Positions 8,181-53,529 of a stretch of DNA of 64,000 nt are shown piece after piece (within the stretch, counting starts at the first letter, position 1; each line of letters begins with the position of its first letter). Origin of the DNA: a virus; the IMG/VR virus record IMGVR_UViG_3300009103_000003, positions 62,001-126,000 of that record. One strand, 5' to 3'. Made by a program: the position numbers and the translations under genes. The notes under the pieces were generated by a model that was given only the letters and a program-made list of their open reading frames with translations, did not search any database and was not told the origin of the DNA.

Positions 8181-8188
8181 CTTATACC
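8181..8188 (-). promoter_or_regulatory. Candidate extended -10 promoter (TTGGTATAAG) for the leftward operon
   Basis: On the minus strand the intergenic region 8122-8218 holds TTGGTATAAGC, an extended -10 like sequence 60 nt upstream of the ATG at 8121. The same GGTATAAG octamer lies upstream of two other minus-strand transcription units (12289-12296 and 58446-58453). No TTGACA-like -35 is seen. The rest of this short divergent gap must also carry the control of the rightward late genes, but no convincing plus-strand promoter was identified. Confidence 0.45.
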
Positions 8189-9879: not shown

Positions 9880-11892
9880 ATGGATTATGGTTCTCAACGA
9901 TACGGTCTAAGTTCTTCAGGCGCACGCGCTAAATCGGTTGGGCGACCTGAGTCATTTTACCCCAGCCCCTTTTTTGATGTTGCCAAAAACTACATCCCCA
10001 AAACCATTAAAGAGTGTTTTGACTGGTGTCATTACTATCAATTAACAAACCCTCTTGTTAATGCAGTAACTCAGAAGTTGGCCACCTATCCAATCACGGA
10101 CTTGGTGTACGAGGATGACAATGAGGGTGTTACCAAGATCTATAAAGACTTGTTTGAGAAGCAGTTTCTCATGCGGTCTTTTCTTATCGAAATCAATTTA
10201 GATAGGTACACATACGGGAACTCGTTTATCTCTGTAGCGTTCCCGTTCACCAAGCTCCTCAAATGCTCTAACTGTGGCCATGAATCCCCAGCAAGAAGTT
10301 CTGGATACAAATGGAAAGGATTCAAGTTCCATTTGGATTGCAAAGAGTGCGCCCATTACGGACCAGCCAAGGCCACTGACGAGCCCCTTAAGTCACCAAG
10401 GCAGATTAGACTTATTCGGTGGAACCCAAAGCATATTACCATAAAATATAATGAGATCACTGGGCGGTATCTCTACTACTACACCATGCCTAGAACGCTC
10501 AGGAATGACATCACCTTGGGTAAGCCGGATGTCTTAGAGACAATCCCGCAGGCGTTCATTGACGCCATTAGGAAAAAGAAGTCCATACTCTTGGACAACG
10601 ATAAAATTTTCCACACCAGAAGACCCTCTATTTCGAGAGAGCCCTCAGATAGTGGGTGGGGCGCACCGCTGATACTTCCCGTCCTGAAGGACATCTTCTT
10701 TCTTCAGGTGCTCAGAAAAGCCCAGGAAGCTGTGGCGATGGAGCACGTTGTTCCTATGCGAGTGATGTTCCCCCAAATCACTACGGATGGGAACAACCCT
10801 TATGCCCAAATTAATATGAAGGACTGGCAGAAAGAGGTGCAGGTCCAAATTAAACGCTGGCGGCAAGACAACAACCATATTCCGGTTATGCCTCTACCAA
10901 TTGGGTACCAGATGATTGGGGGGCAGGGCAGGTCCCTGCTGCTACACCAAGAGTTACGAATTTACTCCGATCAAATCATCGCTGGTATGGGCGTCCCAAC
11001 TGGGTTCTTTTATGGCGAAGCCCAGTACTCTGGGGCCTCGGTAAATCTAAGAGCCTTAGAAAACGAATTTCTCGGTAACCGACAAGACATGCTCAGATGC
11101 GTGGAGTTTGTCCGTGACCGCGTTGCGCATTTCTTAAACCTCCCCCAGATTGAGCTTAAGTTCAAGCCCTTCAAGATGGCGGATGATATTCAGAGGGCCA
11201 GCTTTGATATGAACTTGGCTAACGCTGGGATGATTAGCCGAAGAACCTTCTTACAGTCTCGTGATTTCAATTTTGATAATGAGCAAGAACTCATGTCCAA
11301 AGAAAATGAAATGATGGGACGTTCGCAAAGGGAGCAGCAGATTAGGCAGACCGAATCTCAGGGAGAAGCCATGCTTATTCAGACTCGATACCAAATAGAG
11401 TCTCAGAATATGCAGCAGGAAAATCAGGCGCAAATGCAGCAGCAGTATGGGCCCCCTCCCGGTGAAGAAGGGCAACAGCAGGGGCAGGGACAGCCGCAAC
11501 AGCAGGGGCAACCACAAGAGCAACAGGGTGGTGAGCAACAACCCCAAGGCGCTGAGGCACAGCAACAGGGCGCTGCCCCGGAGCAACAGGGTGAACAACC
11601 GCCACCGGAGCAACAGGGTGCTGGTGAAGTGGTTCAAGGTGCAGCACAAAGCCCTCTACAGGCAAACCAAAGCCCGATGGTGGACTTGTTTGCGCAAGCC
11701 AAGCGCCTCACCTCTGAGTTAAAAAAGATGAATGAGGTAGATAGGTACCGGGCGCTGGCACAGATTCGTGCCAGCAACCCGGATTTGTATATGTTGGTGA
11801 ACAACGCTCTGTCAGGTCAAGGCGTTCAGCCTATGCGACCATTACCAGAGAAATTACCACCAAGATCAGGACCGGGCAGTGCACAGATTTAA
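9880..11892 (+). CDS. Portal protein with zinc-ribbon insert and Gln/Pro-rich tail
   Basis: 670 residues. The central part reads like a myovirus portal: a conserved RLIRWNPKHI stretch, KSILLDNDKIFHTRRPS, VAMEHVVPMRVMFP, and a GMGVPTGFFYG region followed by an NLRALENEFL helix. Two CxxC pairs (CSNC and CKEC, about residues 128-157) form a putative zinc ribbon inserted in the N-terminal third. From about residue 525 to 590 the chain is a Gln/Gly/Pro low-complexity stretch with repeated QQG units, then a helical C-terminus. The portal forms the dodecameric vertex for DNA entry and tail attachment. ATG 9880 follows AGGGGTGG. TerL lies about 17 kb downstream, an unusual separation. Confidence 0.85.
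   Translation: MDYGSQRYGLSSSGARAKSVGRPESFYPSPFFDVAKNYIPKTIKECFDWCHYYQLTNPLVNAVTQKLATYPITDLVYEDDNEGVTKIYKDLFEKQFLMRSFLIEINLDRYTYGNSFISVAFPFTKLLKCSNCGHESPARSSGYKWKGFKFHLDCKECAHYGPAKATDEPLKSPRQIRLIRWNPKHITIKYNEITGRYLYYYTMPRTLRNDITLGKPDVLETIPQAFIDAIRKKKSILLDNDKIFHTRRPSISREPSDSGWGAPLILPVLKDIFFLQVLRKAQEAVAMEHVVPMRVMFPQITTDGNNPYAQINMKDWQKEVQVQIKRWRQDNNHIPVMPLPIGYQMIGGQGRSLLLHQELRIYSDQIIAGMGVPTGFFYGEAQYSGASVNLRALENEFLGNRQDMLRCVEFVRDRVAHFLNLPQIELKFKPFKMADDIQRASFDMNLANAGMISRRTFLQSRDFNFDNEQELMSKENEMMGRSQREQQIRQTESQGEAMLIQTRYQIESQNMQQENQAQMQQQYGPPPGEEGQQQGQGQPQQQGQPQEQQGGEQQPQGAEAQQQGAAPEQQGEQPPPEQQGAGEVVQGAAQSPLQANQSPMVDLFAQAKRLTSELKKMNEVDRYRALAQIRASNPDLYMLVNNALSGQGVQPMRPLPEKLPPRSGPGSAQI
11470..11640 (+). 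repeat. Low-complexity Gln/Gly/Pro-coding repeat inside portal
   Basis: Degenerate tandem units of the type CAACAGGG encode QQG/QGQ/PEQQG repeats in the portal C-terminal region. It is a coding microsatellite-like stretch, likely a flexible spacer facing the capsid interior, and prone to length variation. Confidence 0.75.
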
Positions 11893-12288: not shown

Positions 12289-12296
12289 CTTATACC
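12289..12296 (-). promoter_or_regulatory. Candidate promoter (GGTATAAG) of the 12111-12248 cassette
   Basis: Minus-strand TTAGGTATAAGAAC lies 41 nt upstream of the ATG at 12248. The octamer GGTATAAG is shared with sites at 8181-8188 and 58446-58453, each upstream of a minus-strand unit. Confidence 0.45.
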
Positions 12297-12307
12297 TAAC
12301 TAATACA

Positions 12308-12321
12308 CCGTGTTAGCACGG
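12308..12321 (+). promoter_or_regulatory. Hairpin overlapping the ribosome-binding site of the RNA polymerase gene
   Basis: A perfect CCGTG-TTAG-CACGG stem-loop ends within the first bases of the GGAGGG SD (12320-12325) of the polymerase gene. Folding would partly mask the SD, so translation of the 2,091-residue polymerase may be damped or regulated. Confidence 0.4.
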
Positions 12322-12329
12322 AGGGACTA

Positions 12330-15300
12330 ATGTCGAATGTTTTAGATCCCCAGAGGGTGATGAAGACCCTCGAAGACGGGACGATAAACGAAATCAAAAA
12401 GTTTTTTCCTTTGGTTGGGAAGAAACATACGCTGATCGCCAAGGATGTCTATATTGGCGACCCAGTAGACATTGATGACGTTTCTAGTCAGAAAAAAGCA
12501 AGGCTTCGTGGGAGAACCTGGGCGCAGGGTGTCTTCGCAGACTTTAGTTTAGTCAACAACGAAACCGGCAAAGTAATTAGCACTGCTAATAAGCTAAAGG
12601 TTCTTAACCTACCAAAAATAACGCGAAGGTACAGCTACATTGTAGATGGTACCGAATACCAAGCAGACAACCAGTGGCGACTCAAGTCGGGCGTATATGC
12701 TCGTCGCAAAGCCAATGGCGATCTAGAATCCCAATTCAACCTAGCCCAAGGGCGCGGATTTAGACTAGGATTTGACCCCAAAAAGCGGCGATTCCTTATG
12801 TCCTACGGGACCTCCAACATCCAGCTTCTTCCGGTATTGCAAGCGCTCGGCGTCAAAGACGAAGACATACAAGCTGCCTGGGGTAACGAGCTATATACCG
12901 CTTCACTGGCCTCAAAAAAGCGGGGAGAGCTTGTGAAGCTTTCCAAGGCATTGGATAAGAAAGCTGGAGCAACGAACGACTCAGAGGCTGTGCCGGTAAT
13001 ACAAGCAGCCCTTAAAGAAACAAAACTTCTACCAGAAACAACTGCGATAACTCTCGGAGCCCCCCATACAACAGTTTCTGGTGATGCTCTGTTGGCGTCC
13101 TCCACAAAACTCCTAAACATAAACAAGGGAACCGAACAAGTCGATAACCGAGACGCGCTCCAGTTTAAGGAGCTTTGGGCCATTAACGACCATATCCCGG
13201 AACGAATCGAGAACTCAAAGCGTCGCATCACTTACAAGATGATGAACAATCTCGACCGTAAGGATAATGTGAGGGGGATTGTTACTGGGGACATTTTCAA
13301 TGTACCTATCAAGGCATTTTTTACCTCCACTTCCCTGTCCCAGCAGTCCTCCCAGGTTAACCCTGTAGATATGGTTGGGGGCTTCCTGAGAACCACAATT
13401 ATGGGGACCGGAGGCATTCAAAGCGACTCTGCTATCTCTGAGGAAGCTAAGCTGATTGATTCCAGCTTTCTCGGGTTTATTGATCCGGTGCACACCCCAG
13501 AAGGAAAGCGCTCCGGGATTAGTGGCCATCTTTCGCTAGGCGTACGTAAAAAGGGTACCGTCCCGCTTATCAAGGTATTCGACGTAAAGGCCGGTAAGTA
13601 CGCAGATAAATCACCATCAGAACTAACTTTGGGTAACGTAGCTTTCCCGGACCAATACGAGTTTACCAAAGGTAAATCTCCGAGGCCTATTGGGGACACC
13701 GCCACCGTTATCCCTTCCGGGGGAGGGGACCCGAGCAGGGTTGCATCATCTGACGTGGACTACATTCTTCAGTCTCCGAAACAGATGTTTTCCATCACAG
13801 CTAACCTTGTTCCCTTCCTCCCTTCGGATCAGGCAAACCGGGCAGGTATGGCAACCCGCCATATCGAACAGGCAATCTCCCTAACCAAAGCCGAAGAACC
13901 GCTGGTACAGGTTATCTCAGGCAACCCCAGTGAAAGATATGCTACCTGGGAAAAGATTGTGGGTGAGTTCTTCTCCCACCCCGCACCAGTAAGTGGTTTT
14001 GTTGACTCTGTCTCCAGTTCAAAGATTGTCGTAAAAAACAAGGACGGCAAGAAGCACGAAGTGCAGCTATATGACAACTTCCCGCTAAACGACAAGAAGG
14101 CGTATATTAGCAGTAATGCCTTAGTTAAGAAGGGGGACAAGGTATCTGAGGGGCAGATCATTGCGGACACGAACTTCACCAAGGGCGGAACGCTATCCCT
14201 AGGAACCAACCTGCTTATTGGCTATCTGCCTTACAAGGGGCTGGTTTTTGAGGACGGTATCGTCATCAGTGAGTCTGCGTCAAAAAAACTAACAAGCTCC
14301 CACTTACATAAAGAACGTTCATATGTAGATAAGAATATGGTGGTTGGGCTCAAGAAGTTTAGGGCTAATTACCCAGGCTCCATCTCCGAAGAAAACGCCA
14401 GCAAGCTTGACGCAGATGGGGTTATCAAAAAGGGGCAGACAGTTGACCCTGGGGACACCATCACCACGGTCCTTCAAAAAACAGAACCCTCAAAAGAACA
14501 GCTTCTTCTGAAGGGAATCCATAAGTCCCTTGTTAGGCCGTATAAAAACAAGTCCCTTGTTTGGGACAAACCTTACAGGGGCGAAGTCACCGACGTGGTT
14601 CGCAACGGGCGTGAGATTGTGGTCTATGTCAAGACCGAGGAGCCCGCAGACATTGGGGATAAGCTATCCGGAAGGCACGGCAATAAAGGGGTTATTACCG
14701 CAGTAATACCGGACGAAGAAATGCCGAAAGACTCGGAGGGTAACGCTCTACAGATAATCGTGAACCCGTCAGGGGTTCCGGGAAGAATCAATCCGGGGCA
14801 GGTCCTTGAGACTGCTTTGGGGAATGTTGCCCATAAAAACGGCGAGCCCTACGCAGTGGAGAACTTCCAATCAGATGACCGTAAGAAGGTTGTTCGCGTA
14901 AAGGCTCACACACGGACTATCCAAACAAAGTCTGGGCCTAAGACCGTAGAGGTTAAGGAACATGAACGAGAACTTGGTTACCGGGATGTTGTTGACGCTG
15001 CCCTAAAAAGCGCGAAGGTATCTGAGACAAGAGAATTGTTCGACCCACAGACAGGGAAAAGCCTCGGCTCCGTGCTCGTGGGACATCAGTATGTCCTCAA
15101 GCTAATGCACCAAGTAGACAAAAAGCTGAGTGCTCGTTCCCACGGATATGGGCATGATTACGACGCCAACCTAGTCCCAAAAAGCGGGGGGAAGTCTGGC
15201 GGTGCCCAAAGATTCGGTGAGCTTGGGCTCTACGCAATGTTGGCACACGGAGCCACGGCAAACATCCGAGACGCGTTAACATATAAAGGGGATAAGCAGC

Positions 15301-18300
15301 AGGACGAGGTTTGGACAGCAGTCCAGACTGGGGCTATTTTACCAACCCCTAAACCATCCTTTGCGTACGAAAAGTTTCTCGCCTACATGAATGCGTTAGG
15401 GCTAAATGTTGAAAAAGACGGCAATGGCCTAATCGTCTCACCACTTACAGACAAACAGATCAAGAGTATGTCTAACGGTGAAATAAAAGACGGAAGCCGA
15501 GTCATTCGTGGGAAGGACCTCAAGCCTGAGAAAGGTGGCCTATTTGATGAAACGATCACGGGCGGTCCCGGAGGCAAGAACTGGGCACATATCGCTCTCG
15601 CAGAGTCGCTCCCAAACCCTGTTTTCGAGAAAGGAATCCGCTCAGTTTTAGGGATAACCGGTAAAGAATATGATGCTGTAATAGCAGGTAAGTCCGGGTT
15701 CAATGCTGAGGGAGAGTTGGTGCCAGCCGGGGACGGCGTACTTACTGGGCCCGCTGCAATGGCCGCTCGACTAAAAAGTATCGACGTAGAGAGCGAACTA
15801 GCCTCAGCAAAAGAGGCGATAAAGACAGTCAGGCGAAATGACCTGGATAAGGTCAACAAGAAGATCAAGTATTGCCTGATGCTTCAAAAGAACAAAATCA
15901 GCCCACAAGAGGCATACGTTATTGATAACGTCCCGCTTCTTCCTCCGCTATTTCGACCCATCACAGCTATGGAGGGGGGAGACCTAAATATTGATGGTGT
16001 GAATATGCTCTATAGAGACATCGCACTGCTCAATAAGAAGCTGAAGGAGGCCCAAGGAGTCTTGCCAGAAGAAGCAATAATGAAACTTCGGGAAGATCTA
16101 TACTCCGCAACAGAAGCACTGATGGGCGTTCAGACCATGACTCAGGGAGGGCTGACGACAGACGGTCAACCCAGACCTCCTGGGATTCTGCATATCCTAG
16201 CTGGTAGATCCTCACCTAAGCAGAGCTACTTTCTACAAAGACTGGTAGACCGGAGACAAGACATAAGTATGCGTTCGGTCATTGTCCCTGACATGAACCT
16301 GCACTTAGATGAACTGGGTCTGCCTAGAAAAGGGGCGATGAAGATCTTCCGACCATTTGTGGTTCGGGAACTTGTTAAGATGGGGTACACACCCCTAAAA
16401 GCCAGGACTGAAGTAGAGAAGAACACAAGCCTAGCAAACAAGGCGCTGGACATTGCGGTTGAGAAGCGGCCCGTTATGTTCAAGCGAGATCCCGTTCTGC
16501 ACAAGTTTGGGATTATGGCGTTCAAGGCACGCCTTCATGACGAGTCAGCAATCCATATTCACCCACTTGTTGTTGGTGGGTTCAATGCTGATTTTGATGG
16601 AGACACGATGGCAGTGTTTGTCCCTGTATCGCAAGAAGCAGTGGATGAGTCATATAAGATGATGCCATCAAAGAACCTGTTTAACCCGGCTACCGGGCAC
16701 GTGATGTACCAACCAACTCTTGAGGGACAGTTGGGACTTTACCTCCTCTCTCGATGGGGGAAGAAGTCATCTAAGGCATTCAAGAACTCGAAAGAGGCCA
16801 TTGCTGACGCCAAAGAAGGAAACATCAGCATGACTGATGTCATCCAGGTAGGTGACATTAAAACAACTGCGGGAAGATTATTATTCAATAATATGCTCCC
16901 AAAGAAAGTCCAATCCGATAAATTCCTCACAGACCCGAAAGCTATCGTTGATAAGAAAACCCTTCAGGGGGTTCTTAGGGATGTGGCCACCAAAACCCCG
17001 CAAGAATTCGCGCAAACAGCGGATAGGGTCAAAGACCTTGGTTTTGGCCACGCATACAACATCGGGTTCTCGTTCGCTCTTTCAGACTTCGCACCTTTGC
17101 GGGACATTCGCGAAAAGCACATGACCCTCGCAAAAAAGAAAGAGGCGGTTATTCGAAAGCAGTTATCGATGAAGATGTTGTCCAAAGAAGCTGCCAACGA
17201 TAAAATTGTAAAACTATATGAATCCGCAGATTCGGCCATGACCGCTGATGCTACTGCTTTACTAGATAAGGGCGGGAACAAGCTTAAGCTTATGGAGGCT
17301 GCGGGGGTTAAGCCCTCATGGTCACAGCTTAAACAAATGATCATGGCACCGATGCTAGTTGAAAACGCGCAGGGAAGGGTCATACCTGTTCCCGTGACTA
17401 GCTCCTATTCAGAGGGGCTGAAGTCCTCGGACTACTGGGTAACTACATCGGGCGCTCGTGCGGGCCTTATCAAAAAGGTCCAGTCCGTTCAGAAGCCTGG
17501 GGCGCTTAATAAGCAGATCGCTAATACAACAATATCATACGTAATAAACAATGATGACTGTGGGACTGGGAAGGGGATATCCTTACCGGTATTTGATTCA
17601 GATTTAGTTGACCGGTTTACCGCGAAATCGATTTCAACCGCAGGATTGAAGGTATCTTCCGGGACTCTTATCACCCCTAATCTTCTCTCTAAAATGAAGG
17701 CGTCCAAGGTGGACAGGGTGGTTGTCAGGTCCCCTCTTAAGTGTGAGCAGTCCAAGGGGCTGTGTTCCAAGTGTTACGGTATTACCGATAATGGGGCTCC
17801 CATAGCTAAGGGAACCAATATCGGATTAATTGCCGGGACGTCAATTGGTGAACGTGGGACACAACTTTCTATGAAGGCTTTCCATACTGGCGGTGTAGCT
17901 GGGGGAGGAAGCTCGGTTGTTGGTGGTATTGACCGGGTCTCACAATTGCTGAAGATGCCTGCACTATTGGCTGGCTCTGCGACACTGTCTCCGGTTTCTG
18001 GAGAGGTGACCTCCGTAACAAAGAGTGAGATTGGTGGCCACGATGTGGTTATCGGCAACCAAGAGGCGTACATCCCCGGCAATCTATCGGTTTCCGTAAA
18101 GAAGGGCGAGAAGGTACGCAGAGGTCAACAAATTTCTAGTGGGGTCATTAACCCGCACGATCTTCTTGAGAAGACAAACATTGAGACAGTTCAGCGGTAT
18201 CTTGCGGATGAGATTCACAAGGTCTACGCGAAAGAGGGCATCAAGAAGAGAAACGTTGAGGTGGTAACAAAGGCTTTAACGAATCTGGGCAGGGTAATGG

Positions 18301-18605
18301 ACCCCGGCGACTCCTCTAAGTTTATTCGGGGTGACTACATTTCGCTTTCTCATGCAAGCGCTGTGAACAAAACTTTGAAAAACCCCATAAAAACATTACC
18401 TGTACTGCGTGGTGTAGAGACCCTGCCGCTAGATCAGACCACAGACTGGTTGGCGAGACTACAATACAGAAAACTAAAAGAGACGTTTATTAGGGCCGCA
18501 AATGAGGGGTGGGAGAGTGATATTCACGGCCTCCACCCAGCGCCTGGACTAGCCTATTCTGCTGAGTTTGGTAGGAAGGGTAAAACTACAGGGGGGCCCT
18601 ACTAA
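12330..18605 (+). CDS. Single-chain RNA polymerase: beta and beta-prime subunits fused
   Basis: 2,091 residues. The first ~1,000 residues follow bacterial beta: the IVDGTEYQADNQWRLKSGVY segment near 105-124, the KLSGRHGNKGV motif with K778 and K786, and the beta C-terminus (KLMHQVDKK, GAQRFGELGLYAM). The rest follows beta-prime: KPEKGGLF, VPLLPPLFRP, DISMRSVIVPD, the catalytic NADFDGD (D1421, D1423, D1425), zinc site 2 (C1744, C1805, C1812, C1815) and the bridge/trigger segment starting GERGTQLSMKAFHTGG at 1840. Both double-psi barrels and the Mg-binding triad are present, so activity is expected. The beta-prime N-terminal zinc finger is missing. Length is about 660 less than E. coli beta plus beta-prime. 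No alpha, omega or sigma is seen nearby. Position in the virion block suggests packaging and injection, as for phiKZ and N4 virion RNAPs; this is inference. Confidence 0.93.
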   Translation: MSNVLDPQRVMKTLEDGTINEIKKFFPLVGKKHTLIAKDVYIGDPVDIDDVSSQKKARLRGRTWAQGVFADFSLVNNETGKVISTANKLKVLNLPKITRRYSYIVDGTEYQADNQWRLKSGVYARRKANGDLESQFNLAQGRGFRLGFDPKKRRFLMSYGTSNIQLLPVLQALGVKDEDIQAAWGNELYTASLASKKRGELVKLSKALDKKAGATNDSEAVPVIQAALKETKLLPETTAITLGAPHTTVSGDALLASSTKLLNINKGTEQVDNRDALQFKELWAINDHIPERIENSKRRITYKMMNNLDRKDNVRGIVTGDIFNVPIKAFFTSTSLSQQSSQVNPVDMVGGFLRTTIMGTGGIQSDSAISEEAKLIDSSFLGFIDPVHTPEGKRSGISGHLSLGVRKKGTVPLIKVFDVKAGKYADKSPSELTLGNVAFPDQYEFTKGKSPRPIGDTATVIPSGGGDPSRVASSDVDYILQSPKQMFSITANLVPFLPSDQANRAGMATRHIEQAISLTKAEEPLVQVISGNPSERYATWEKIVGEFFSHPAPVSGFVDSVSSSKIVVKNKDGKKHEVQLYDNFPLNDKKAYISSNALVKKGDKVSEGQIIADTNFTKGGTLSLGTNLLIGYLPYKGLVFEDGIVISESASKKLTSSHLHKERSYVDKNMVVGLKKFRANYPGSISEENASKLDADGVIKKGQTVDPGDTITTVLQKTEPSKEQLLLKGIHKSLVRPYKNKSLVWDKPYRGEVTDVVRNGREIVVYVKTEEPADIGDKLSGRHGNKGVITAVIPDEEMPKDSEGNALQIIVNPSGVPGRINPGQVLETALGNVAHKNGEPYAVENFQSDDRKKVVRVKAHTRTIQTKSGPKTVEVKEHERELGYRDVVDAALKSAKVSETRELFDPQTGKSLGSVLVGHQYVLKLMHQVDKKLSARSHGYGHDYDANLVPKSGGKSGGAQRFGELGLYAMLAHGATANIRDALTYKGDKQQDEVWTAVQTGAILPTPKPSFAYEKFLAYMNALGLNVEKDGNGLIVSPLTDKQIKSMSNGEIKDGSRVIRGKDLKPEKGGLFDETITGGPGGKNWAHIALAESLPNPVFEKGIRSVLGITGKEYDAVIAGKSGFNAEGELVPAGDGVLTGPAAMAARLKSIDVESELASAKEAIKTVRRNDLDKVNKKIKYCLMLQKNKISPQEAYVIDNVPLLPPLFRPITAMEGGDLNIDGVNMLYRDIALLNKKLKEAQGVLPEEAIMKLREDLYSATEALMGVQTMTQGGLTTDGQPRPPGILHILAGRSSPKQSYFLQRLVDRRQDISMRSVIVPDMNLHLDELGLPRKGAMKIFRPFVVRELVKMGYTPLKARTEVEKNTSLANKALDIAVEKRPVMFKRDPVLHKFGIMAFKARLHDESAIHIHPLVVGGFNADFDGDTMAVFVPVSQEAVDESYKMMPSKNLFNPATGHVMYQPTLEGQLGLYLLSRWGKKSSKAFKNSKEAIADAKEGNISMTDVIQVGDIKTTAGRLLFNNMLPKKVQSDKFLTDPKAIVDKKTLQGVLRDVATKTPQEFAQTADRVKDLGFGHAYNIGFSFALSDFAPLRDIREKHMTLAKKKEAVIRKQLSMKMLSKEAANDKIVKLYESADSAMTADATALLDKGGNKLKLMEAAGVKPSWSQLKQMIMAPMLVENAQGRVIPVPVTSSYSEGLKSSDYWVTTSGARAGLIKKVQSVQKPGALNKQIANTTISYVINNDDCGTGKGISLPVFDSDLVDRFTAKSISTAGLKVSSGTLITPNLLSKMKASKVDRVVVRSPLKCEQSKGLCSKCYGITDNGAPIAKGTNIGLIAGTSIGERGTQLSMKAFHTGGVAGGGSSVVGGIDRVSQLLKMPALLAGSATLSPVSGEVTSVTKSEIGGHDVVIGNQEAYIPGNLSVSVKKGEKVRRGQQISSGVINPHDLLEKTNIETVQRYLADEIHKVYAKEGIKKRNVEVVTKALTNLGRVMDPGDSSKFIRGDYISLSHASAVNKTLKNPIKTLPVLRGVETLPLDQTTDWLARLQYRKLKETFIRAANEGWESDIHGLHPAPGLAYSAEFGRKGKTTGGPY

Positions 18606-19963
18606 TGCAGGACGCTTACGGTAAATCAGCAGAAGCCTCACTTGGCCCAGCTAACATATGGCTAGCCAAAGTAACTAATGTCAACATGCGGGAGTGGACC
18701 ATCGATGTGGAGGGGGTGTACACCCTCAAGCCCCTGCCAGGGGTTCCTTTTGCGTCCCCCTACTGTCATCGAGACCATGCCGGGGGTGTTAACTATATCC
18801 CCGAGGTCGATTCACTTTGTTATATAGCCGAGTGCATGGATGGGACCACCTTTGCCTTTGCCTTTGTTCTAAACTCAGTGACAACTGCACCTGCTGAGTT
18901 TGACGAGGAAGAGGAGAAGTATGACGAGACCTCTGCCACTGTAGACCCCAGCTTTCGCGGTAACCGGATGCCATTAGAGCCCGGTGATATTATGTTGGGC
19001 ACTGTAGACGAAAATCAGATCGTTGTTCGGAGAGGGGGCATGATCCAGATTGGATCAACCGGGCTAGCACAAAGACTCTATATCCCTGTAGAGAATACGA
19101 TTCGGGATTACTTTCAGCGCTACCAAGGCATTAGCCCTGTGGGGGAGATTGAGTGGGGACACGCTGTTCTAGTGAACGGGGAAGATCCATCAGGGGGAAC
19201 AGGGAGTATCCCCACATCTAATTATTTTTTAGATGATGGGCAGAAGAACGCCTTGAAGACAGCAGAAGAAACCCCTGTCCTTGTCCGCTATAACATTAAA
19301 GACCTTTGCCAAGAGGATGTCAGCAAAGGGAAGTACACCATTGAGTTGCGGGCAGGGCGACTAACCGACGAGACTTTAGATACCGAGGTGGACGCCGAGC
19401 ACATATTTGCCAACGCAGATCTCCACAAAACCAAAAAAATCTTAGGTACCGGTATCGCACCGGAAGATAAAGGTATTGTAAGTATTACTATTTATAGTCA
19501 CGATGATGGTGATAATAAAGATAAAGTTACTTACGCCTTCCAACTAAACAGAGATGGCGATAATTTTGTATTTACAAAGGGCAGCATTCATTACGAAGTA
19601 GAGAAAGATTTTAATGCTGTTATTCAAGGGGACACCCAGGTTTCTTGGGGTGAGGGCTCCGAAGAAGGCGAGGGAGACTCCTATTTACAGCTTTTGAATT
19701 CGAATGAATTTAAGATGGCCTGTAAGAAGGTTGTTATGGAAGTTGTGAATGGTGTGGAGTTCTCCTGCAAAGACATGAACATAAAAGCCAGTAATAATGT
19801 TGATATTGGGGACGGTGCCGATAATATGGTTTGTCGCACTGAGTCCCTTGAGACTTTTATGAAGTCTGCTTTCCAGTGTGTGACTGCCTGGGGACCTAGC
19901 GGCCCCATGATTCCGTCATTCACCCCGGATGTTGGCTCCAAGAAAGTAAAGGTGAAGCCATAA
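18605..19963 (+). CDS. Baseplate spike-like protein with N-terminal OB-type domain
   Basis: 452 residues; ATG overlaps the polymerase stop by one base. The N-terminal 100 residues (IWLAKVTNVNMREWTIDVEG, then a Pro-rich loop and VDSLCYIAECMDG) resemble the OB-fold of gpV/gp5-type baseplate spike proteins. A following GDIMLGTVDENQIVVRRGGMIQIGSTG stretch is typical of the hinge to the beta-helix. A ~180-residue insertion of unknown fold precedes a C-terminal repeat-like end (EFKMACKKVVMEV, DMNIKASNNVDIGDGAD). It probably caps or pierces at the tail tip of the contractile machine. Assignment rests on pattern resemblance only. Confidence 0.55.
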   Translation: MQDAYGKSAEASLGPANIWLAKVTNVNMREWTIDVEGVYTLKPLPGVPFASPYCHRDHAGGVNYIPEVDSLCYIAECMDGTTFAFAFVLNSVTTAPAEFDEEEEKYDETSATVDPSFRGNRMPLEPGDIMLGTVDENQIVVRRGGMIQIGSTGLAQRLYIPVENTIRDYFQRYQGISPVGEIEWGHAVLVNGEDPSGGTGSIPTSNYFLDDGQKNALKTAEETPVLVRYNIKDLCQEDVSKGKYTIELRAGRLTDETLDTEVDAEHIFANADLHKTKKILGTGIAPEDKGIVSITIYSHDDGDNKDKVTYAFQLNRDGDNFVFTKGSIHYEVEKDFNAVIQGDTQVSWGEGSEEGEGDSYLQLLNSNEFKMACKKVVMEVVNGVEFSCKDMNIKASNNVDIGDGADNMVCRTESLETFMKSAFQCVTAWGPSGPMIPSFTPDVGSKKVKVKP

Positions 19964-25393: not shown

Positions 25394-27163
25394 ATGAGTC
25401 TGGGCGATTACTTAACCAAATCTGCGGAAGAAGCTCCCCCCAAGCATGGGACAGGGATTCCTTCGCTCAAAGAATGGTTCAAGCCCTACGATCATCAAGC
25501 AAGCGCAATTGACCGCCTGTTCGCTAACAAAGGGAAGATGATTCTCGCCCATGAGATGGGTACCGGTAAAACCGTTACCAGTATCTATGGGTTTGAGAAA
25601 ATGAAGCATGAAGGTAAGGCGAAAAAAGCTCTTGTCATTGTGCCTTCCGGTCTTCGAGACAACTTCGCCAAAAACGGTATTGAGAAGTTCACCAATAGTA
25701 CTTGGCAGGCGATTGGTTCTTCCTCTGAGAAGTCTAAGAAGGCTGGGTATATCAGGCCTGGGGAAGAGTCCGACAAAGATTACACAGTAATAAGCTATGC
25801 GATGTTTCGGCGTGATCCAATTGGGTACATGAAGCGAACAGGCGCAGATACGATTATCGCGGACGAGTTCCACAAGACTAGGAATGAACGGGCTAGCACA
25901 TACCAAGCCCTGGCCTCTGCTCGTGTGTTGGCTACAAACTTCATGGGGCTGACCGCCTCGATGATTAATAATAATCCTTCGGAGTTGGCGACCCTGCTTA
26001 CCTTATCGGAGGGGAGGCGGGACCTAACACCAAGGCAATTTAAGCGCCGATATACCCAAACGATTGGATTCACCAAAGGATTTAATGACGGTCGTAAAAA
26101 GATCGTTGGGATGAAAAATGTTGATGAGCTACGGGAGCGGACAGGGACAAAAGTAGACTACGTCGAAACCAAGGACTTGAAAGGCAAGACGATGCCTAAA
26201 AAAGATATTGAGACAGTCCCTGTCCCAATGTCTAAGGAACAGTATCGACTGTATCAACTGTCACTAAACAAGCTCGGCCCAGTTAAGAAGTATATAACCA
26301 AGAAAGACCCAAACATCACTGTGCGAGAAGCCAAGATGATTTTTGGGCAGATTTCACAAGCCCGACAAGTCGCTAACTCTCTCCAAACTGGGCGAAGTGA
26401 TGTGACCCTTGCCGAGTCATCCAGAAGAACTCCGAAGGTGAACAGGCTCCTAAACGACACAGAAAAACACTTGGCAGATAAGTCAGACAACAAGGTTGTT
26501 TTATATTCGAACCTTGTTCGTGGTGGGGTGGATGTTCTATCTGCCGGGTTAAAAGAACGAGGAATCCCCCACTCTGTATTCGTTGGTAAAGGCACAGAGG
26601 TGGGTGGTAATAAGGTTACAGCCGTCTCCAGACAGGCTGGAGTTCAGGAGTATAAGGCCGGGAAAAAGCGGGTAATCGTCATCAGTGGTGCTGGGGCTGA
26701 GGGGCTCGATCTTAAGAACTCAACGGCATTTTTCTCTTTAGATGGGCACTTCAATCCACAACGCGTTTTACAAGCAGAGGGTAGGGCTAGAAGACTTGGT
26801 GGGCAAAAACATCGCGCATTAGAGGACCGCATTGTGAATGTAAGGCGCTACCAGAGTGTCGCGCCAGACAGTGCAAAGCCTGGGTTTATTGGTCGAGTGT
26901 TTGGGAAGACCACCCCAAGAACAACAGATCAATGGATGGATAGCGTTGCTAGCCGGAAGTACCAGCAGCAAGAGCAATTCTATAAAGCCTATAAGCAGAA
27001 AAAGCATCTGTATAAATACACAGACCAAAGCGGGAAAACTAGATATGTCTACGCCAAAAAAACCAAACAAAAATCCCCTGGACTCTTTTCTCGGATCTTC
27101 TCTAGAAAGCGAACTCCTGAAGCTAGCCCAATCCAAGCCCCCAAACCTACGACTGTCGGATAG
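25394..27163 (+). CDS. SNF2-like SF2 helicase/translocase encoded among virion genes
   Basis: 589 residues. Motif I is GTGKT (56-60) after a PYDHQASAIDRL Q-type motif; motif Ia is VIVPSGL; motif II is DEFH near 156; motif III is GLTAS; the second RecA lobe holds VLYSNLVRGGVDVL, IVISGAGAEGLDLKN and ends with QAEGRARRLGG (motif VI with its arginines). The form is that of Snf2-type translocases. The first 11 residues are MSLGDYLTKSA, the short K-x-A tag seen on other proteins of this block. The C-terminal 90 residues are basic. A virion helicase injected with the DNA could protect or remodel incoming DNA (compare P1 DarB); this is inference. Confidence 0.85.
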   Translation: MSLGDYLTKSAEEAPPKHGTGIPSLKEWFKPYDHQASAIDRLFANKGKMILAHEMGTGKTVTSIYGFEKMKHEGKAKKALVIVPSGLRDNFAKNGIEKFTNSTWQAIGSSSEKSKKAGYIRPGEESDKDYTVISYAMFRRDPIGYMKRTGADTIIADEFHKTRNERASTYQALASARVLATNFMGLTASMINNNPSELATLLTLSEGRRDLTPRQFKRRYTQTIGFTKGFNDGRKKIVGMKNVDELRERTGTKVDYVETKDLKGKTMPKKDIETVPVPMSKEQYRLYQLSLNKLGPVKKYITKKDPNITVREAKMIFGQISQARQVANSLQTGRSDVTLAESSRRTPKVNRLLNDTEKHLADKSDNKVVLYSNLVRGGVDVLSAGLKERGIPHSVFVGKGTEVGGNKVTAVSRQAGVQEYKAGKKRVIVISGAGAEGLDLKNSTAFFSLDGHFNPQRVLQAEGRARRLGGQKHRALEDRIVNVRRYQSVAPDSAKPGFIGRVFGKTTPRTTDQWMDSVASRKYQQQEQFYKAYKQKKHLYKYTDQSGKTRYVYAKKTKQKSPGLFSRIFSRKRTPEASPIQAPKPTTVG

Positions 27164-28887: not shown

Positions 28888-29127
28888 TCAGTCCCGTCTC
28901 TTGCCATACCAGATTGTTATTTTCCCGTATTTCGCGTTAATACGTACTCGGCCCTTGGGGCCTAAGGCATCTCTAAGGAAGGCGTCTAGTAATTTTTTAG
29001 CTTGTGGGTCTAGTGGGGCCCACACGGTAAGCGTGTAGGTTTTCCCATGACTCTCGTACGACAACAGATCGTTACCGATAGCTCTGGAAAGTGAGGCAAT
29101 AACTCTTTTGAAGGCTACGTCATCCAT
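28888..29127 (-). CDS. Unknown 79-residue protein, divergent from TerL
   Basis: Product begins MDDVAFKRVIASLSRAIG and ends in basic residues; a helix-strand-helix-strand pattern with TYTLTVWAPLD and VRINAKYGKITIWYG. Not recognised. Its ATG (29127) shares the CATG tetranucleotide with the TerL ATG on the other strand. No SD is visible upstream, so either leaderless translation or an undetected start is possible. Confidence 0.5.
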   Translation of the reverse strand: MDDVAFKRVIASLSRAIGNDLLSYESHGKTYTLTVWAPLDPQAKKLLDAFLRDALGPKGRVRINAKYGKITIWYGKRRD

Positions 29128-30763
29128 GATTAAAGTTCACGATAGTGACAACCCAGAATGGACACCGTTATCGATGTTCCCGTCTGAGTTCGTTAGCTCA
29201 TTTGTGAATATTGCCTCAGGCGGGCACCTGAGCAAATTCAGTTTTAAAGGACGGCAGTACCTTCTACCCATTTACGACACTCCTGCTCGTAGGGTTTTGC
29301 TCTTGTGCGGTCGTCAGGTAGAGAAAAGTACGACCCTTGGGAATACTATGCTGACGCACACAATGCTTCAACACCATTTCCGAGCTTTGTTTGTGAGCCC
29401 TACCCAGCAGCAAACTGAAACGTTCTCTAGGGATAGGATTGCAACCCCAATTGAGGTGTCGCCCCACTTGCAAGTTTTCACTAGGGGTGACCACACAAAA
29501 AATAACGTTTTATATAAGAAATTTATTACCGGGTCCGATCTGACCATGCGGTATGCATTTCTGCACGCTGACCGCGTTCGCGGTATTTCCGCTGACATGT
29601 TATTGCTGGATGAGATTCAGGACATCCTCACAGAGGTTATCCCAGTAATCGAAGAAGCCCTGTCTCACTCCCCTATCAAGCTTCTTAGGTATTCTGGGAC
29701 ACCCAAGAGTGTTGATAACACGATTAGTTATTACTGGAACCAGTTCTCTACAATGAATGAGTGGGTCATCCCTTGTGATAGCTGCAATAAGTGGAACGTT
29801 ATAGGGATAGACAACGTCGGCCCAGAGTTCCTTATGTGCTCGAAATGTCACTCAAAAATACATCCGGACCACCCTAAGGCTCAATGGGCTTCGATGCGTT
29901 CTCCCCAGTGGTTGAGCAACCCCCCAATTGCTGAGCCATTCGAGGGATACAGAATCCCGCAAGTTATTACCCCCTGGGTGAGTTGGGATGAAATTTCGGA
30001 TAAGAGAAAGAGGTATTCTAAGGCGCAATTCTACAATGAGTGCCTGGGGTTACCATACGATTCCGGTTCCAAGCCTCTTACGAAAGAGAGCCTTATGGCT
30101 TGCTGTGACCCAGGAAGGTCTATGAAGCAAGTGGAGCAGTTTGCCCTAAGAAATAAAGTGTTCATGGGCATTGACTGGGGAACGGCTGAAAATTCCTACA
30201 CGGTCATGACTGTGGGTGCGTATATAAAAGATCGGTTCCACGTCCTTTTATTCAAACGTTTTGAGGGTGAGGAAGCTGAGCCAGAAAAGATGATGAGCAC
30301 TATTAGTAGTTATATTGATCGTTTTAAGGTAGACACAGTTGGTGTAGACTACGGTGGTGGGTTTGACAGAAATGACAAACTTATTAGAACATTTGGGATT
30401 CGCCGGATAGCAAGGTATCAGTACGTAAACACAAAAAAGATTTATTTTGATAAGAGCCTTCACCGATTTATGGTGAACAGGACAGAGGCCTTAATGGCTA
30501 TTATTAACGCTATAAACAGAGGTGACGAATTTGTCTTCCCCAAGTGGGAAGAGATTGAGTTTCCTTTTGGAAGCGATATGTTATCTGTGTTCACAGAGTA
30601 TAATGAGGCTAGGCGCACAACGGTGATCCAGAGAACGCCGGGAACAACTGATGATACATTGCACTCATTGGCGTATTGTTTTTTGGCATCTATGATAAAG
30701 CACCCAAGACCTGATATTATCACCCCAATAGGGGATCGGGAAGAAGGGGCTAGAAGAGGTTAA
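29126..30763 (+). CDS. Terminase large subunit (ATPase + nuclease)
   Basis: 545 residues from ATG 29126 (GAAGG upstream; an in-frame TTG at 29108 is possible). The ATPase has Walker A-like GRQVEKST (62-69), in which the usual Gly of RQxGKST is Glu, and Walker B MLLLDE (158-163). A zinc-ribbon insert with two CxxC pairs (CDSC and CSKC) lies near residues 213-240, as in GpA-type terminases. The nuclease has GIDWGTAE near 345, VGVDYGG near 400 and DDTLHSLAY near the C-terminus, giving the RNase H-like acidic triad. It packages DNA through the portal. No small terminase was clearly identified. Confidence 0.9.
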   Translation: MIKVHDSDNPEWTPLSMFPSEFVSSFVNIASGGHLSKFSFKGRQYLLPIYDTPARRVLLLCGRQVEKSTTLGNTMLTHTMLQHHFRALFVSPTQQQTETFSRDRIATPIEVSPHLQVFTRGDHTKNNVLYKKFITGSDLTMRYAFLHADRVRGISADMLLLDEIQDILTEVIPVIEEALSHSPIKLLRYSGTPKSVDNTISYYWNQFSTMNEWVIPCDSCNKWNVIGIDNVGPEFLMCSKCHSKIHPDHPKAQWASMRSPQWLSNPPIAEPFEGYRIPQVITPWVSWDEISDKRKRYSKAQFYNECLGLPYDSGSKPLTKESLMACCDPGRSMKQVEQFALRNKVFMGIDWGTAENSYTVMTVGAYIKDRFHVLLFKRFEGEEAEPEKMMSTISSYIDRFKVDTVGVDYGGGFDRNDKLIRTFGIRRIARYQYVNTKKIYFDKSLHRFMVNRTEALMAIINAINRGDEFVFPKWEEIEFPFGSDMLSVFTEYNEARRTTVIQRTPGTTDDTLHSLAYCFLASMIKHPRPDIITPIGDREEGARRG

Positions 30764-38214: not shown

Positions 38215-39420
38215 ATGTCTAGCGTACCTAGCGAAGTCCTCAACGAGCTTTTTGTCTCTAAGCTCGATACTGAGGCCGGAAAAGAAAAGATTGCTGCTCT
38301 TGGCGGTGATTTTATTAGAGACCGTCTGCGTGAGGAGAGCTTTGCTCGCAAGGTCCTCCCCCCGAAGACCGTCAGTCGTTCGGACCTCCAGGTCAGCGTC
38401 AATCACGATACCCTCGTGAAGGTCGTTGAAGTGGAGCCACAAAGCCGAGCCATGAGTATGTCATTCCGGGCACAGCCCACGGTGAGATACTACACTGGTC
38501 CGCGCTTTGAGGTACCGTTTCATACGGTTGGTTCGCAGCGTTATGAGCAAACTGAGCAGGAGCTTATGGCCTACGTGATGCCAATCACGGAGATCATCAA
38601 GCGTAACATTGTTAACGATATCCAAGAGATTGAGGACCGCGTGTTCTTGACTCACATGGAATCGGCCTGCCAGTCGTTACAGCAAGATGCACAGGGCCTC
38701 GCGTTCGGTGCTGCATACAACAACAGTGGTGCAACTGTTTTCTCGGCACGTAATGTGCTCGTGAACGGCATCCCTGAAGTTGGTAAGGTCAAAGGCGTAG
38801 ATGCCGCTGCCCTTACGGTTGCTGCAAACGATGTTGCTGGCGCTGACGAAGCCCTCGTCTTCCCTGTTCAGAAGGATGACTTTATTAAGTTGTTCCAGAC
38901 GTTCACAGGCGGCGGTGCTCGTGGCTCTCGACTGCGGTGTGATCAGTTCCTCATGACTGACACTGACTTCGAGGACCTGAATGCTTGGGCACATGCGGAT
39001 ATGGGAGATAAGATTGTTGGCGAGACTACTGTCGATGGATACAAGTACAAAACGGTTATTGGCCGTAAGTTCATTCGTACCCTGAAGACGGACATTCTTC
39101 GTCCTGGCAATATTTATGCTTTCACCGCACCCGAGTATTTGGGTGGCTTCCTTGTTCTCAACAAGACTAAGTTCTACGCCGATAAGGAACGGAACCGAAT
39201 CTCGTTTGAGGCTTGGGAAGACATTGGTATGTATGTCGGAAACGTGGCTGGTGTTCGTAAGCTTGAGCTTTACACTGGTTCCGTCGAGACTATTGCCGGT
39301 GGTGGTGCAACTAACGCGGTGACGCGTGCTGCACGTCTTCCTGTTGCGGAAGCTGACATGGGCGGGCGTAACCACCTCGTTAACGAGGGGCAAACGTTCC
39401 CTGCTGTAGCGCAGTTCTAG
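38215..39420 (+). CDS. Major capsid protein, HK97-type
   Basis: 401 residues. The pattern of an N-terminal helical arm, VRYYTGPRFEVPFHTV, a spine-helix region, FLMTDTDFEDLNAWAHADMGDK and the C-terminal KFYADKERNRISFEAWEDIG with a P-domain-like end is that of large HK97-fold capsid proteins. KEKIA-A at residues 23-28 is a K-x-A motif at a place where an N-terminal delta-like segment could be cut. SD AGGAGG; a strong hairpin terminator follows. Order decoration, capsid, terminator is typical. Confidence 0.85.
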   Translation: MSSVPSEVLNELFVSKLDTEAGKEKIAALGGDFIRDRLREESFARKVLPPKTVSRSDLQVSVNHDTLVKVVEVEPQSRAMSMSFRAQPTVRYYTGPRFEVPFHTVGSQRYEQTEQELMAYVMPITEIIKRNIVNDIQEIEDRVFLTHMESACQSLQQDAQGLAFGAAYNNSGATVFSARNVLVNGIPEVGKVKGVDAAALTVAANDVAGADEALVFPVQKDDFIKLFQTFTGGGARGSRLRCDQFLMTDTDFEDLNAWAHADMGDKIVGETTVDGYKYKTVIGRKFIRTLKTDILRPGNIYAFTAPEYLGGFLVLNKTKFYADKERNRISFEAWEDIGMYVGNVAGVRKLELYTGSVETIAGGGATNAVTRAARLPVAEADMGGRNHLVNEGQTFPAVAQF

Positions 39421-44689: not shown

Positions 44690-44711
44690 AGCCCCAACAG
44701 GAGTGATAAAT

Positions 44712-47700
44712 ATGGCAACGCTTCCACGACCCGGCGTAGAGATTTCCCAGGAAATCATCGTAGAATCGCCCACCGTCTTGACACCAGCACTGGTGCCTTG
44801 CATCGTTGGGCCCTGCTTTCAGATTGTTGACCCAATCGATGAAGACGGGGCTCTTAACCCACAGGCATCAGTATCAACTGCTGCCCGTGCAGTCAGCACT
44901 GCTGATCTGAACGAACCGCTGAATCTTCGCGGTCGTGAGTTCATTATTTCCGTTAATAATGGCGCAGATCAGATCATTAGCATGCCTGCGGCAGTTAATG
45001 GTGACTTCTCCATGAGCTTTGCCTTGGTCGTCAACACGATCAATAAGCAACTTACTGGTGCTATCGCTGAAATCACTCCCGGCGTAGTAGACGGTGTTGC
45101 TCAACCAAGCAGGCTTGTGTTCAGAACGAACGCTAAGGGACCAACCGCTGCTGTACTGCTAAAGGCGCACCCTGCTGGCGCAGCGTCTTCCGCTTATGGC
45201 GCAGGACCCGATGATATCGTTCAGATGAACGCTCTTGAGGGGATTAATATTACGGGACAGACGAACTACACGAACGTCGCCTACAATATCCCTTACACGA
45301 GCATGCCCTCCCCCATGACTAGCGCTGATGAGTGCGTCTGGGCAGGCGACGATATTACTGTTTATAGATTCTTTGCTAATAGTCTGTCCGAGCTATCGAC
45401 CGATAGTGCAACCAATTGGAATGCATTTACTCTTGGCGAGTCCACGGATGGCGGCGGTAACGCCACCTCCAGTGCTCACCAGCCTGTGATTGCTAATGGT
45501 AAGACTGTCCTTTGGGGCAAGCCTGGAACTGGCTCTAAGACAAACACATTGTGCAACCCAGGAACCCCTGCCAGCATCACTATTCCTTTGGCGCACAGCC
45601 TGAGCGCACAATACCCGTCCAGTCTTGTTGCTTGGCCTGATGTGAGTGGTGAAAACTTCTTGCATGTTGAAGCTCTTGGGCTCCAAACATACCTTGCCAC
45701 CCAAACCCCCGCAGATATCGGGAACTGGGTTGGTGCGGCTGGTAATGCCATTAACGTTGTCTTCGCTGAGAACGCGAATTTGACCGTTGCTTGGAACCCT
45801 GCTGGCACATTGACAATCAATTGTGATGAGACACATACGTTTGCTCAATTGGGCGCTGCGTTAGAGGACCCGGCATTTACGGCCTCGATTGCCTCTGACC
45901 TTATTATCACTTATGCGCCCGGACCAGATGCAGAATCCTTTAGAGGCTTCGCTGCTGGTCAGGCTCCCGCTCCGTGGGTTGGCGGTGCTCACACCTTGAA
46001 CCTTCACGGTGGAGCCGACCCAATCAACTTTGGGGTAGACGGCAACAATGCCGGTGGGCCTGCTAGTGGCGACGACGACCGGATGGCTTGGGTTTGTGGC
46101 GCTGTCGAGGTAGGAAACCTTACCGCAGATGCTTTGGGCCTAGGCGGTGAAATCCTCAATGTATCTATTGATGGTGCAGTCCCCTTGGCAATCACTCTTA
46201 CGGGTGGCGCACAGGTAAACACCACTATCAATAACGCTCTAGCCGGTATCGGTGGATGCACTAATGAAAACGTCGTTAACGCCTTGGGCGAGACGATTAG
46301 TGCTTTGCGGATTAACACTGTGTCTCAAAATGGTCACGACTCCACAATCGAGCTTTCCTCTCCGAATGCAGCAGTCATTGAAAGACTGTGGAGTGGGTTT
46401 GCTAGTGGGTCTGACACCATTGCGCAGGTGGCACTCGCAAATGCGGCTACGCCCCCACAGGCTCACGCCTCTCGTAGATTCTTGGTATCGGGTGGTATCG
46501 GAAACGACTACAACCTTCTTGCCCAATCACTTGGTGAGACAGCCATCCAGAATGGCTCCTTGACCATGATGGTCGATGGGCTTGCATTGGCGTCTCTCCG
46601 CTCTGGCCAAGTTAGTGACGCAGATGTTCTTGCAGCTTCTGCCGGTATGACTTGGGGAGCCGCAGTACCTTGTACGATTACAACCCAAACGGGTAACGAT
46701 GTAATCAACCTAGACCTTGCTGGAAATGTCTCCGGTGGGAGCGCAACCGTTGCTGACTTGATCGTAGAGATTGACACCCAGCTTCAGGCGGCAGGAAACA
46801 CTGGTGGCGAAGTTATTTGTCACGAAGCAAACGGTAGGATCTGTATTACCAGAACCTCTACTACCCACGCTGCTGGAGAAGATTGTTCATTTGAAACAGC
46901 CAACGCTGAATTGTCTGCCCTGTTGGGTGCAGGCATGACCACGGGAACGGCTGTCACGGCAGTGACTGAAGCAACCACCCTTATTATTAAGGATGATGGC
47001 GCAGGCAACTCCTTCCAGGTGAAGTCTTCAACCAGTGACCTAACTGGTCCTTGCCCAGCGAACACTCCTGACACAACTTCCGCTGGAGTCATGTCTGAGT
47101 ACTTCCTTGGTGGTGCACAGCTTGGAACGCCGCTTAACCGTGGTTTTGATCTAAGTCTGGCTGAATACTCTACGGGGGACGTGGCTGTTACGTTTGCTGG
47201 TGAGAACCAAAACGGCGCTCCTGCAAACGCTCTCCCATGCTCTTTTGCTCTTACGCCCGCTTCTGCGCTAACGATTTCTTACACAAGAAGTTGGCCCTGT
47301 GCATTCGGAGAGTCTTCTCCTTCGTATACCTCGCGTCTTTTCCACGGTCGAAGCAATCGGGTTATGACGAGTGATATGCTCTGGAATAAGGGCTCCGTCC
47401 TAGGTCGAGTTGTTCAAGTTAACAACTGGGCAATTGCTGGCGGATTCCCTGGAGCGGAATTGGTCATCTCTGAATTCGCCGCTGAAAAGGGCGTACATCT
47501 TGATGGTTGGTATGTTGTTGCAGAGAACCTTATTGGTGGAACCACCGATGACGCTGGTAACAACATTAGACCTGAACCAGAAGCAGAGTTTAATGATCTA
47601 ACCCAGGTCTACTCAATCAAGCCCGGTGTTAACCGAAATGCTCAAGGCATCGCGGCAGCGGGGTCGAGTGCTCCTGTTTATGCTCAGGTAAAGGCTCTCC

Positions 47701-52254: not shown

Positions 52255-52668
52255 CTACCCTTTTGCAACAACTACGATCTTATTACCGTCTTTCTTTACT
52301 TTAGTCACGAGACCTTGTTTCTTCAAAGCCTTCTGAGCAACAACGGCTGCATACCACTGGTTGACACCGGATGAGAATTTAGTCCCAACCTTAGCGCCTA
52401 ATCGACCACCATCATCTAGATCATCAACGTAGACTTGGTAACTCCCGTTCTCGCCTTTAGCGAACCCAACGTCACCGTAACCACCGTGATATGACTTCTT
52501 AATTAGAATTTCTACTTTTGCGGACTGTCGTCCGTACCCCACAAGATCAAGTAGCTCACCAGGGCTAGCGACCTGAATTTCTTCACGGGGGACACCCAGC
52601 TTTTCAAGGGCTGTGATAACTGCATTCTGATCTTTCATGCAGGTCTCACAAGTAATTAGAGCACTCAT
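52255..52668 (-). CDS. DUF1257 (Ycf35-like) protein
   Basis: 137 residues. N-terminal NAVITALEKLGVPREEI, the VEILIKK strand, DVGFAKGENGSYQVYVDD and the ALKKQGLVTKVKKDGNKIVVV end follow the DUF1257/Ycf35 pattern. Members occur in plastids, cyanobacteria and large phages, usually beside DUF2997 and a Ycf46-type AAA+ ATPase; all three are found here within 4 kb. Biochemical role unknown. ATG 52668 follows AAGGAGG; overlaps the upstream radical-SAM gene by 4 nt. Confidence 0.78.
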   Translation of the reverse strand: MSALITCETCMKDQNAVITALEKLGVPREEIQVASPGELLDLVGYGRQSAKVEILIKKSYHGGYGDVGFAKGENGSYQVYVDDLDDGGRLGAKVGTKFSSGVNQWYAAVVAQKALKKQGLVTKVKKDGNKIVVVAKG

Positions 52669-53279: not shown

Positions 53280-53529
53280 CTTGGGCCTCCTCAACATCAG
53301 ACCACAGCAGCCAAGGGGCTATGATTGGTCCATCATCAGGGCTTGCGCACCCGTCACTATCTGGGGCCCAAACGTCAATAGAGATGCCCTCACTATTCGT
53401 GAGGATTCCTATGTCGGCTGATGTTTCACCGTCAGGACTCGTAACTCTTATCCAGACCCGTGCACCTTCGTGTGCTTTAGTACGTTCATACTCGGTGTCG
53501 CCCGTTTGTATCAGGGCGATGCCTTCCAT
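53257..53529 (-). CDS. Small acidic protein in the Ycf-type module
   Basis: 90 residues, rich in Asp/Glu, ends EAQDEDSGDN. Beta-strand-like N-terminal half (VWIRVTSPDG; SADIGILTNSEGISIDVWAPD). Not recognised. Overlaps the DUF2997 stop by one base and the radical-SAM start by 23 nt. Confidence 0.6.
   Translation of the reverse strand: MEGIALIQTGDTEYERTKAHEGARVWIRVTSPDGETSADIGILTNSEGISIDVWAPDSDGCASPDDGPIIAPWLLWSDVEEAQDEDSGDN

Follow-up and report, generated by a model that had tools for sequence, protein, structure and literature searches.

In Helicobacter and Wolbachia, rpoB and rpoC are fused, with beta preceding beta-prime within one open reading frame (ORF), in a cellular setting that includes alpha, omega and sigma. 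Among phages, phiKZ and AR9 encode RNA polymerases (RNAPs) of the bacterial beta/beta-prime type without alpha, which are divided over four to five chains and occur as paralogous virion and non-virion sets, and a SNF2-type helicase is found in the same phages (PMC7824862). A further group, represented by crAss phi14:2 gp66, YonO and P23-45 gp64/gp96, holds both catalytic barrels in one polypeptide; these enzymes are highly divergent and RNA-dependent RNA polymerase (RdRp)/QDE-1-like, or reduced, and gp66 and gp96 are virion enzymes (PMC7886860, PMC10770324). Finally, the mReC phages of Weinheimer & Aylward 2020 are metagenomic tailed phages from IMG/VR with genomes of up to >200 kb and an alignable beta and beta-prime with the motif NADxDGD; their RNAPs group outside bacteria (PMC7481178). 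Here, we analyze a fused beta/beta-prime RNAP encoded in a 64,000-nucleotide stretch of viral DNA (the window), which comprises bases 62001–126000 of the 181,199-bp IMG/VR phage record IMGVR_UViG_3300009103_000003.

The gene occupies positions 12330–18605 of the plus strand as one frame of 2,091 codons with an ATG start and no internal stops, and the ATG is preceded by a ribosome-binding site, GGAGGG, at 12320–12325 (+). The encoded chain of 2,091 amino acids (aa) was recovered at 100% in the 181,199-bp record. Scans of IMG/VR returned many contigs with the RNAP as the same single ORF, which rules out that the fusion is a one-genome oddity; a chance ORF or assembly chimera is likewise excluded, because the chain recurs as one ORF across many independent metagenome contigs. 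Each of 13 IMG/VR records of 142–202 kb contains one RNAP locus, in a single frame of 2,056–2,517 codons. Sorted by profile, the loci comprise 142 full fusions (including ~20 contigs fetched twice, so that distinct fused contigs number roughly 120), 21 two-piece forms, 27 three-piece forms and 25 that are cut or other. At the level of sequence, we regard it as established that the gene encodes a polymerase, that beta and beta-prime are fused in it and that it is conserved.

The earlier note on this DNA had read the ORF as a full collinear fusion of beta and beta-prime, and the order of Pfam domains, BLASTP and hhalign bear this out along the entire 2,091-aa chain: The profile search yielded beta domains followed by beta-prime domains, namely Rpb2_3, Rpb2_6 (1.8e-56), Rpb2_7, Rpb1_1, Rpb1_2 (5e-27), Rpb1_3 and Rpb1_5. 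The phage RNAP family aligns with E. coli RpoB in hhalign at 100% probability over beta 49–1341, and BLASTP against the same protein is collinear up to beta residue 1338 of 1342, which corresponds to query residue 1028. Against E. coli RpoC, BLASTP reached 4e-86 with an alignment from the clamp towards the C-terminus, and phmmer against the PDB gave beta-prime matches with a best E of 1.8e-116. As the beta match stops at residue 1028 and the alignment with T. thermophilus beta-prime resumes at residue 1040, the junction between the beta part (residues 1–1028; 12330–15413, +) and the beta-prime part (residues 1040–2091; 15447–18602, +) is near-seamless and spans about eleven residues (~1029–1039; 15414–15446, +). 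It aligns without a gap with the RNAPs of the phages Arash and D69. By description, the order of beta and beta-prime is the same as in the Helicobacter and Wolbachia fusions.

Both barrels and the trigger loop align with the bacterial enzymes, as do the bridge helix and the C-terminal part of beta-prime, and the chain carries the two catalytic lysines and the DxDxD motif that mark two-barrel (double-psi beta-barrel, DPBB) polymerases of the bacterial beta/beta-prime type. The active-site motifs noticed previously, GDKLSGRHGNKG, NADFDGD and GERGTQLSMKAFHTGG, are all intact. From the sequence and the family alignment we located the beta catalytic motif IGDKLSGRHGNKG (K778, K786) at 14652–14690 (+), the beta-prime catalytic motif NADFDGD (D1421, D1423, D1425) at 16584–16604 (+), the trigger-loop motif GERGTQLSMKAFHTGG (H1852) at 17847–17894 (+) and the second four-Cys zinc site of beta-prime (C1744, C1805, C1812, C1815) at 17559–17774 (+); the N-terminal zinc ribbon of beta-prime was not seen in alignments of the chain to bacterial enzymes and is apparently missing. 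K778, K786, D1421 and D1423 are invariant in 142/142 fused loci and D1425 in 141/142, and both lysines are also kept in all 48 of the 48 split loci. In the rifampicin-pocket region (13332–13406, +), E. coli F514/D516/H526/S531 are replaced by Q/S/G/T; the S531 position is Thr in 142 of 142 fused loci, and His is absent from the common residues at 526. These altered pocket positions predict that the phage RNAP is resistant to rifampicin. Moreover, E. coli beta-prime R275 and E295, which are known sigma contacts, align with Leu and Leu. The structure predictions agree with the assignment to beta and beta-prime: Two overlapping AlphaFold models, covering residues 330–1480 (mean predicted local distance difference test score, pLDDT, 74) and 1000–2091 (pLDDT 80), match solved RpoB chains (E 2e-47) and solved RpoC chains (E 2e-69), respectively, the former also supporting the extent of the beta part, while template modeling scores (TM-scores) of only near 0.5 do not establish the arrangement of domains within the isolated halves.

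The split relatives reveal how the chain has been divided. Every break falls within beta-prime, and the beta/beta-prime junction is fused throughout. According to locus comparison, both two- and three-piece relatives are broken at residues ~1507–1510 (16848–16859, +), which is the break position in every two-piece form; the three-piece relatives have an extra break at residues ~1129–1140 (15714–15749, +), ~100 residues into beta-prime, leaving the beta-prime start on the beta chain. A tblastn search of 50,697 phage records yielded no close cultured relative, the best cultured matches, at ~30%, being Vibrio phages D181/D148/D69 and Salmonella phage Arash. Arash gp206 + gp216 and the D69 enzyme, annotated merely as RNAP subunits or hypothetical proteins, are homologous over the full length (32–33% for beta plus the N-terminal part of beta-prime) and share with the window the fused junction, the order portal–small gene–RNAP and homologous portal, protease and capsid proteins; they differ in that beta-prime is cut at ~1508 and its C-terminal third forms a separate gene. 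Vibrio phage D181 (L003, 11902–17470) has an RNAP gene that is broken up still further, a homing endonuclease gene lying between the fragments. A genome-collection scan for cellular carriers gave, among the matches listed, only ordinary bacterial rpoB/rpoC at 26–31% identity, a result that leaves room for carriage by a host or prophage. Several phage-named records (H4, H5, H7–H11) contain bacterial rpoB/rpoC operons, apparently host contamination.

In FastTree and IQ-TREE phylogenies, which were computed without archaea, eukaryotes, Campylobacterota, Wolbachia and jumbo phages, all phage RNAPs form one clade apart from the bacteria sampled (18 and 10) with 100% support. The split forms are nested in this clade as one group (97–98% support), and three changes explain the pattern of architectures on the tree. 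Judged from these architectures, the fused beta/beta-prime junction is ancestral to the phage clade, whichever direction is assumed for the break at ~1508. For the break at ~1133 the direction is clear: It is a later fission, since a break that leaves the start of beta-prime on the beta chain is hard to explain without a prior fusion. The break at ~1508 is likely a fission as well. Tentatively, and with rather less assurance, we suggest that the phage lineage inherited a single-chain, bacterial-type RNAP from a common ancestor outside the sampled Bacteria, that the enzyme is carried in the virion and that in some branches the gene was later cut within beta-prime, giving first two and subsequently three chains.

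How does this family relate to the described ones? This widespread lineage very probably equals or overlaps with the mReC phages, as the contigs are similar, the same criteria apply and one source metagenome is common to both: Beta and beta-prime are alignable with NADxDGD, as judged by Pfam and BLASTP rather than by the COG models of the mReC authors, the RNAP falls in a phage clade distinct from the sampled bacteria, and locus L286 stems from metagenome 3300017989, the source of mReC1 and mReC3. The main text on mReC treats beta and beta-prime as subunits and names fusion only for crAss (PMC7481178). The mReC capsids belong to PF07068, with 8 detected among 97 contigs (PMC7481178), whereas the major capsid protein of the window (38215–39420, +; PHROG 2522; 27% to the Arash major capsid protein) has no PF07068 match; PF07068 may be the property of a subset. 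The terminase large subunit (29108–30763, +) has PF05876 as its best match and reaches only E 0.022, below the cut-off, with PF03237, the mReC marker being PF03237 / VOG01069. In contrast to phiKZ and AR9, the window phage has one chain and one locus, and its sequence is far less divergent. It also differs from the crAss/YonO/QDE-1 class, whose members are not alignable to cellular beta/beta-prime, as it represents a full-length bacterial-type pair with strong alignment throughout. The earlier statement that no phage example had been described is not supported in that form, given the very probable identity or overlap with mReC and the published single-chain two-barrel phage RNAPs of other types. 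A description of a collinear beta–beta-prime fusion in phages was not found in the literature searched, the coverage of which leaves out many journals, and PMC10770324 mentions unnamed multisubunit derivatives 'with fused DPBB domains', a wording that makes earlier notice of such a fusion elsewhere possible.

Several fused relatives have a longer ORF owing to in-frame insertions of roughly 330–520 aa at residues ~391 (TPEG), ~780 (GDK|GRHGNKG), ~790, ~814, ~987, ~1427 (NADFDGD) and ~1850 (trigger helix). The borders that were inspected begin with Cys1 and end in GN or HN, after which comes Ser, Thr or Cys; together with LAGLIDADG, Hom_end and weak Intein_splicing matches, this supports their classification as inteins. 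An ORF of 3,259 codons carries three mapped inteins; that the frame is kept open up to this length fits a needed single product. Inteins were noted in L086, L313, L089, L095, L091, L068, L066, L072, L077, L081, L100, L280, L319, L324 and L330, mostly at active-site motifs, and the RNAP ORF of L313 comprises 3,596 codons. Separately, the RNAP genes of L298 (8157–13928) and L328 (8109–14015) contain in-frame TGA codons, at least two of them where relatives have Trp, which suggests that these phages or their hosts translate TGA into an amino acid; the RNAP gene of L264 has one TGA and that of L018 one TAG.

Taking these observations together with the genomic context, we consider it probable, though some way from certain, that the gene specifies an active single-chain RNAP of bacterial type that is independent of alpha, made late, packaged in the virion and used for early transcription from its own promoter, and that the multi-chain forms arose by fission. 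In this mechanism, beta and beta-prime would be joined as one DNA-dependent enzyme, and tethering of the large subunits would allow the core to fold without an alpha dimer and perhaps without omega. We infer independence of alpha from the lack of an alpha-type gene: The RNA_pol_L domain had 0 matches in 15 phage records, whereas 13 of 14 control genomes were positive. No match was obtained for T7-type RNAP (PF00940) either, yet the controls also lacked one, which renders this search uninformative. Packaging is plausible from the location. The RNAP gene lies within a myovirus-type late block on the plus strand, which also contains a protease gene, and, in keeping with the placement between portal and baseplate-type genes noted earlier, a portal homologue (9880–11892, +; 32% to Arash gp204, E 1e-94; matches in 89 loci) precedes it and a gp5/VgrG-spike-like baseplate protein (18605–19963, +) follows. 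The portal assignment derives from the Arash annotation, as profile comparison with solved portals gave no match, and the spike-like gene, whose start overlaps the RNAP stop as TAATG, shows weak matches to a Gp5/VgrG OB-fold protein and the T4 gp5 spike (E 7e-4 to 0.02). Expressed late from this co-directional block, the enzyme would enter the particle and be delivered along with the DNA into the next host, where it would transcribe the early phage genes, as crAss gp66, P23-45 gp96 or the virion RNAP (vRNAP) of phiKZ do.

Initiation would occur at a phage promoter element, for which CTTATNCC is a candidate, rather than via host sigma-70; neither sigma-70 region 2 nor region 4 was recognized in the 181-kb record of the window. 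The window has CTTATACC at 12289–12296 (+), which is 33 nt ahead of the RNAP start, and also at 8181–8188 (+), before the first gene of the plus-strand late block. Among 62 fused representatives with <66% identity to each other, 30 have CTTATNCC between −150 nt and +30 nt of the RNAP gene start, compared with 1.5% of random windows of equal size. It is not universal, as it is found upstream of the RNAP gene in 0/15 split representatives. Because CTTATNCC came from an open search on the very data that show its enrichment, it is to be taken as a candidate and not as a mapped promoter. A reading of CTTATNCC as coding sequence (L-I/M-P) was rejected, with no frame consistently open across relatives, and a k-mer promoter search of the whole record produced no other clear motif.

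Several points weigh against this interpretation. Activity and packaging are deduced from sequence for every member of the family, and the approximately unbiased (AU) test does not reject a single clade of all fused members (p-AU 0.148), so that the tree by itself does not fix which way the ~1508 break went. Some relatives encode sigma-like proteins, so the mode of initiation may vary among members. Location in the late block is suggestive and no proof of packaging: In YerA41, Carin-5 and Rhizobium phage TM30, genes for DNA polymerase or topoisomerase are found close to those for the RNAP. The RNAP of YerA41 is only distantly related and its genes lie outside the virion block, and yet its beta/beta-prime subunits were detected in particles by liquid chromatography–mass spectrometry (PMC7354516), which provides a precedent for virion-borne subunits of this kind. 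It is also conceivable that a polymerase made at a late stage just transcribes late genes. This last thought leads to a rather unlikely but serious alternative, in which the single-chain RNAP is synthesized in the infected cell to transcribe middle or late genes while the host RNAP is responsible for the early ones. It would account for the sole RNAP locus of its type found per record and for CTTATACC standing before the RNAP gene as well as before the first late gene, as in a late regulon, and P23-45 gp64 and the non-virion RNAP (nvRNAP) of AR9 provide precedents; however, the gene is itself late, together with portal, terminase and tail genes, which leaves little to transcribe unless it has an earlier promoter of its own.

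A hybrid enzyme, in which host alpha, omega or sigma still join the fused core to give a modified bacterial polymerase, would suit the overall fold, the length near that of bacterial beta plus beta-prime and the sigma-like proteins of some relatives, but we deem it improbable with Leu/Leu at the R275/E295 sigma-contact positions and a rifampicin pocket altered family-wide. Still harder to credit is a decayed polymerase retained as a structural protein or as a decoy for host RNAP: Beyond the location among structural genes nothing speaks for it, whereas the catalytic Lys and Asp residues are practically invariant in the 142 fused loci and the inteins are kept in frame. We retain the packaged, early-transcribing single-chain enzyme as the preferred explanation.

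Further along the plus strand, the window encodes a SNF2-family helicase (25394–27163, +), whose Arash homologue gp217 directly follows the gene for the C-terminal part of beta-prime, and an unusually long tail protein of 1,487 aa (44703–49166, +) with a sheath domain only at its C-terminus. The non-virion block holds a radical-SAM-type protein (52665–53297, −) and a ParB-like protein (56127–57047, −); a ThiF/E1-like protein lies beside a 354-aa protein of unknown family at 59455–61181 (−). No RNA families were detected within the window.

If the enzyme is active alone, it would constitute a bacterial-type RNAP core in one polypeptide and thus a tool for asking what alpha and omega do. Arash and D69 are two cultured relatives amenable to virion proteomics, and the family additionally has inteins at a number of active-site positions. 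Its three architectures within one alignable family permit a direct test of fusion versus fission in RNAP evolution, for which the discussion of jumbo phages defaults to the opposite order, with many pieces first (PMC7824862). In the order proposed here, the fusion predates the known members of the clade and the Arash-like multi-chain forms came about through gene fission within beta-prime; if this is true, multi-chain phage polymerases would, at least here, have originated by fission rather than descend from a pre-cellular enzyme of many pieces.

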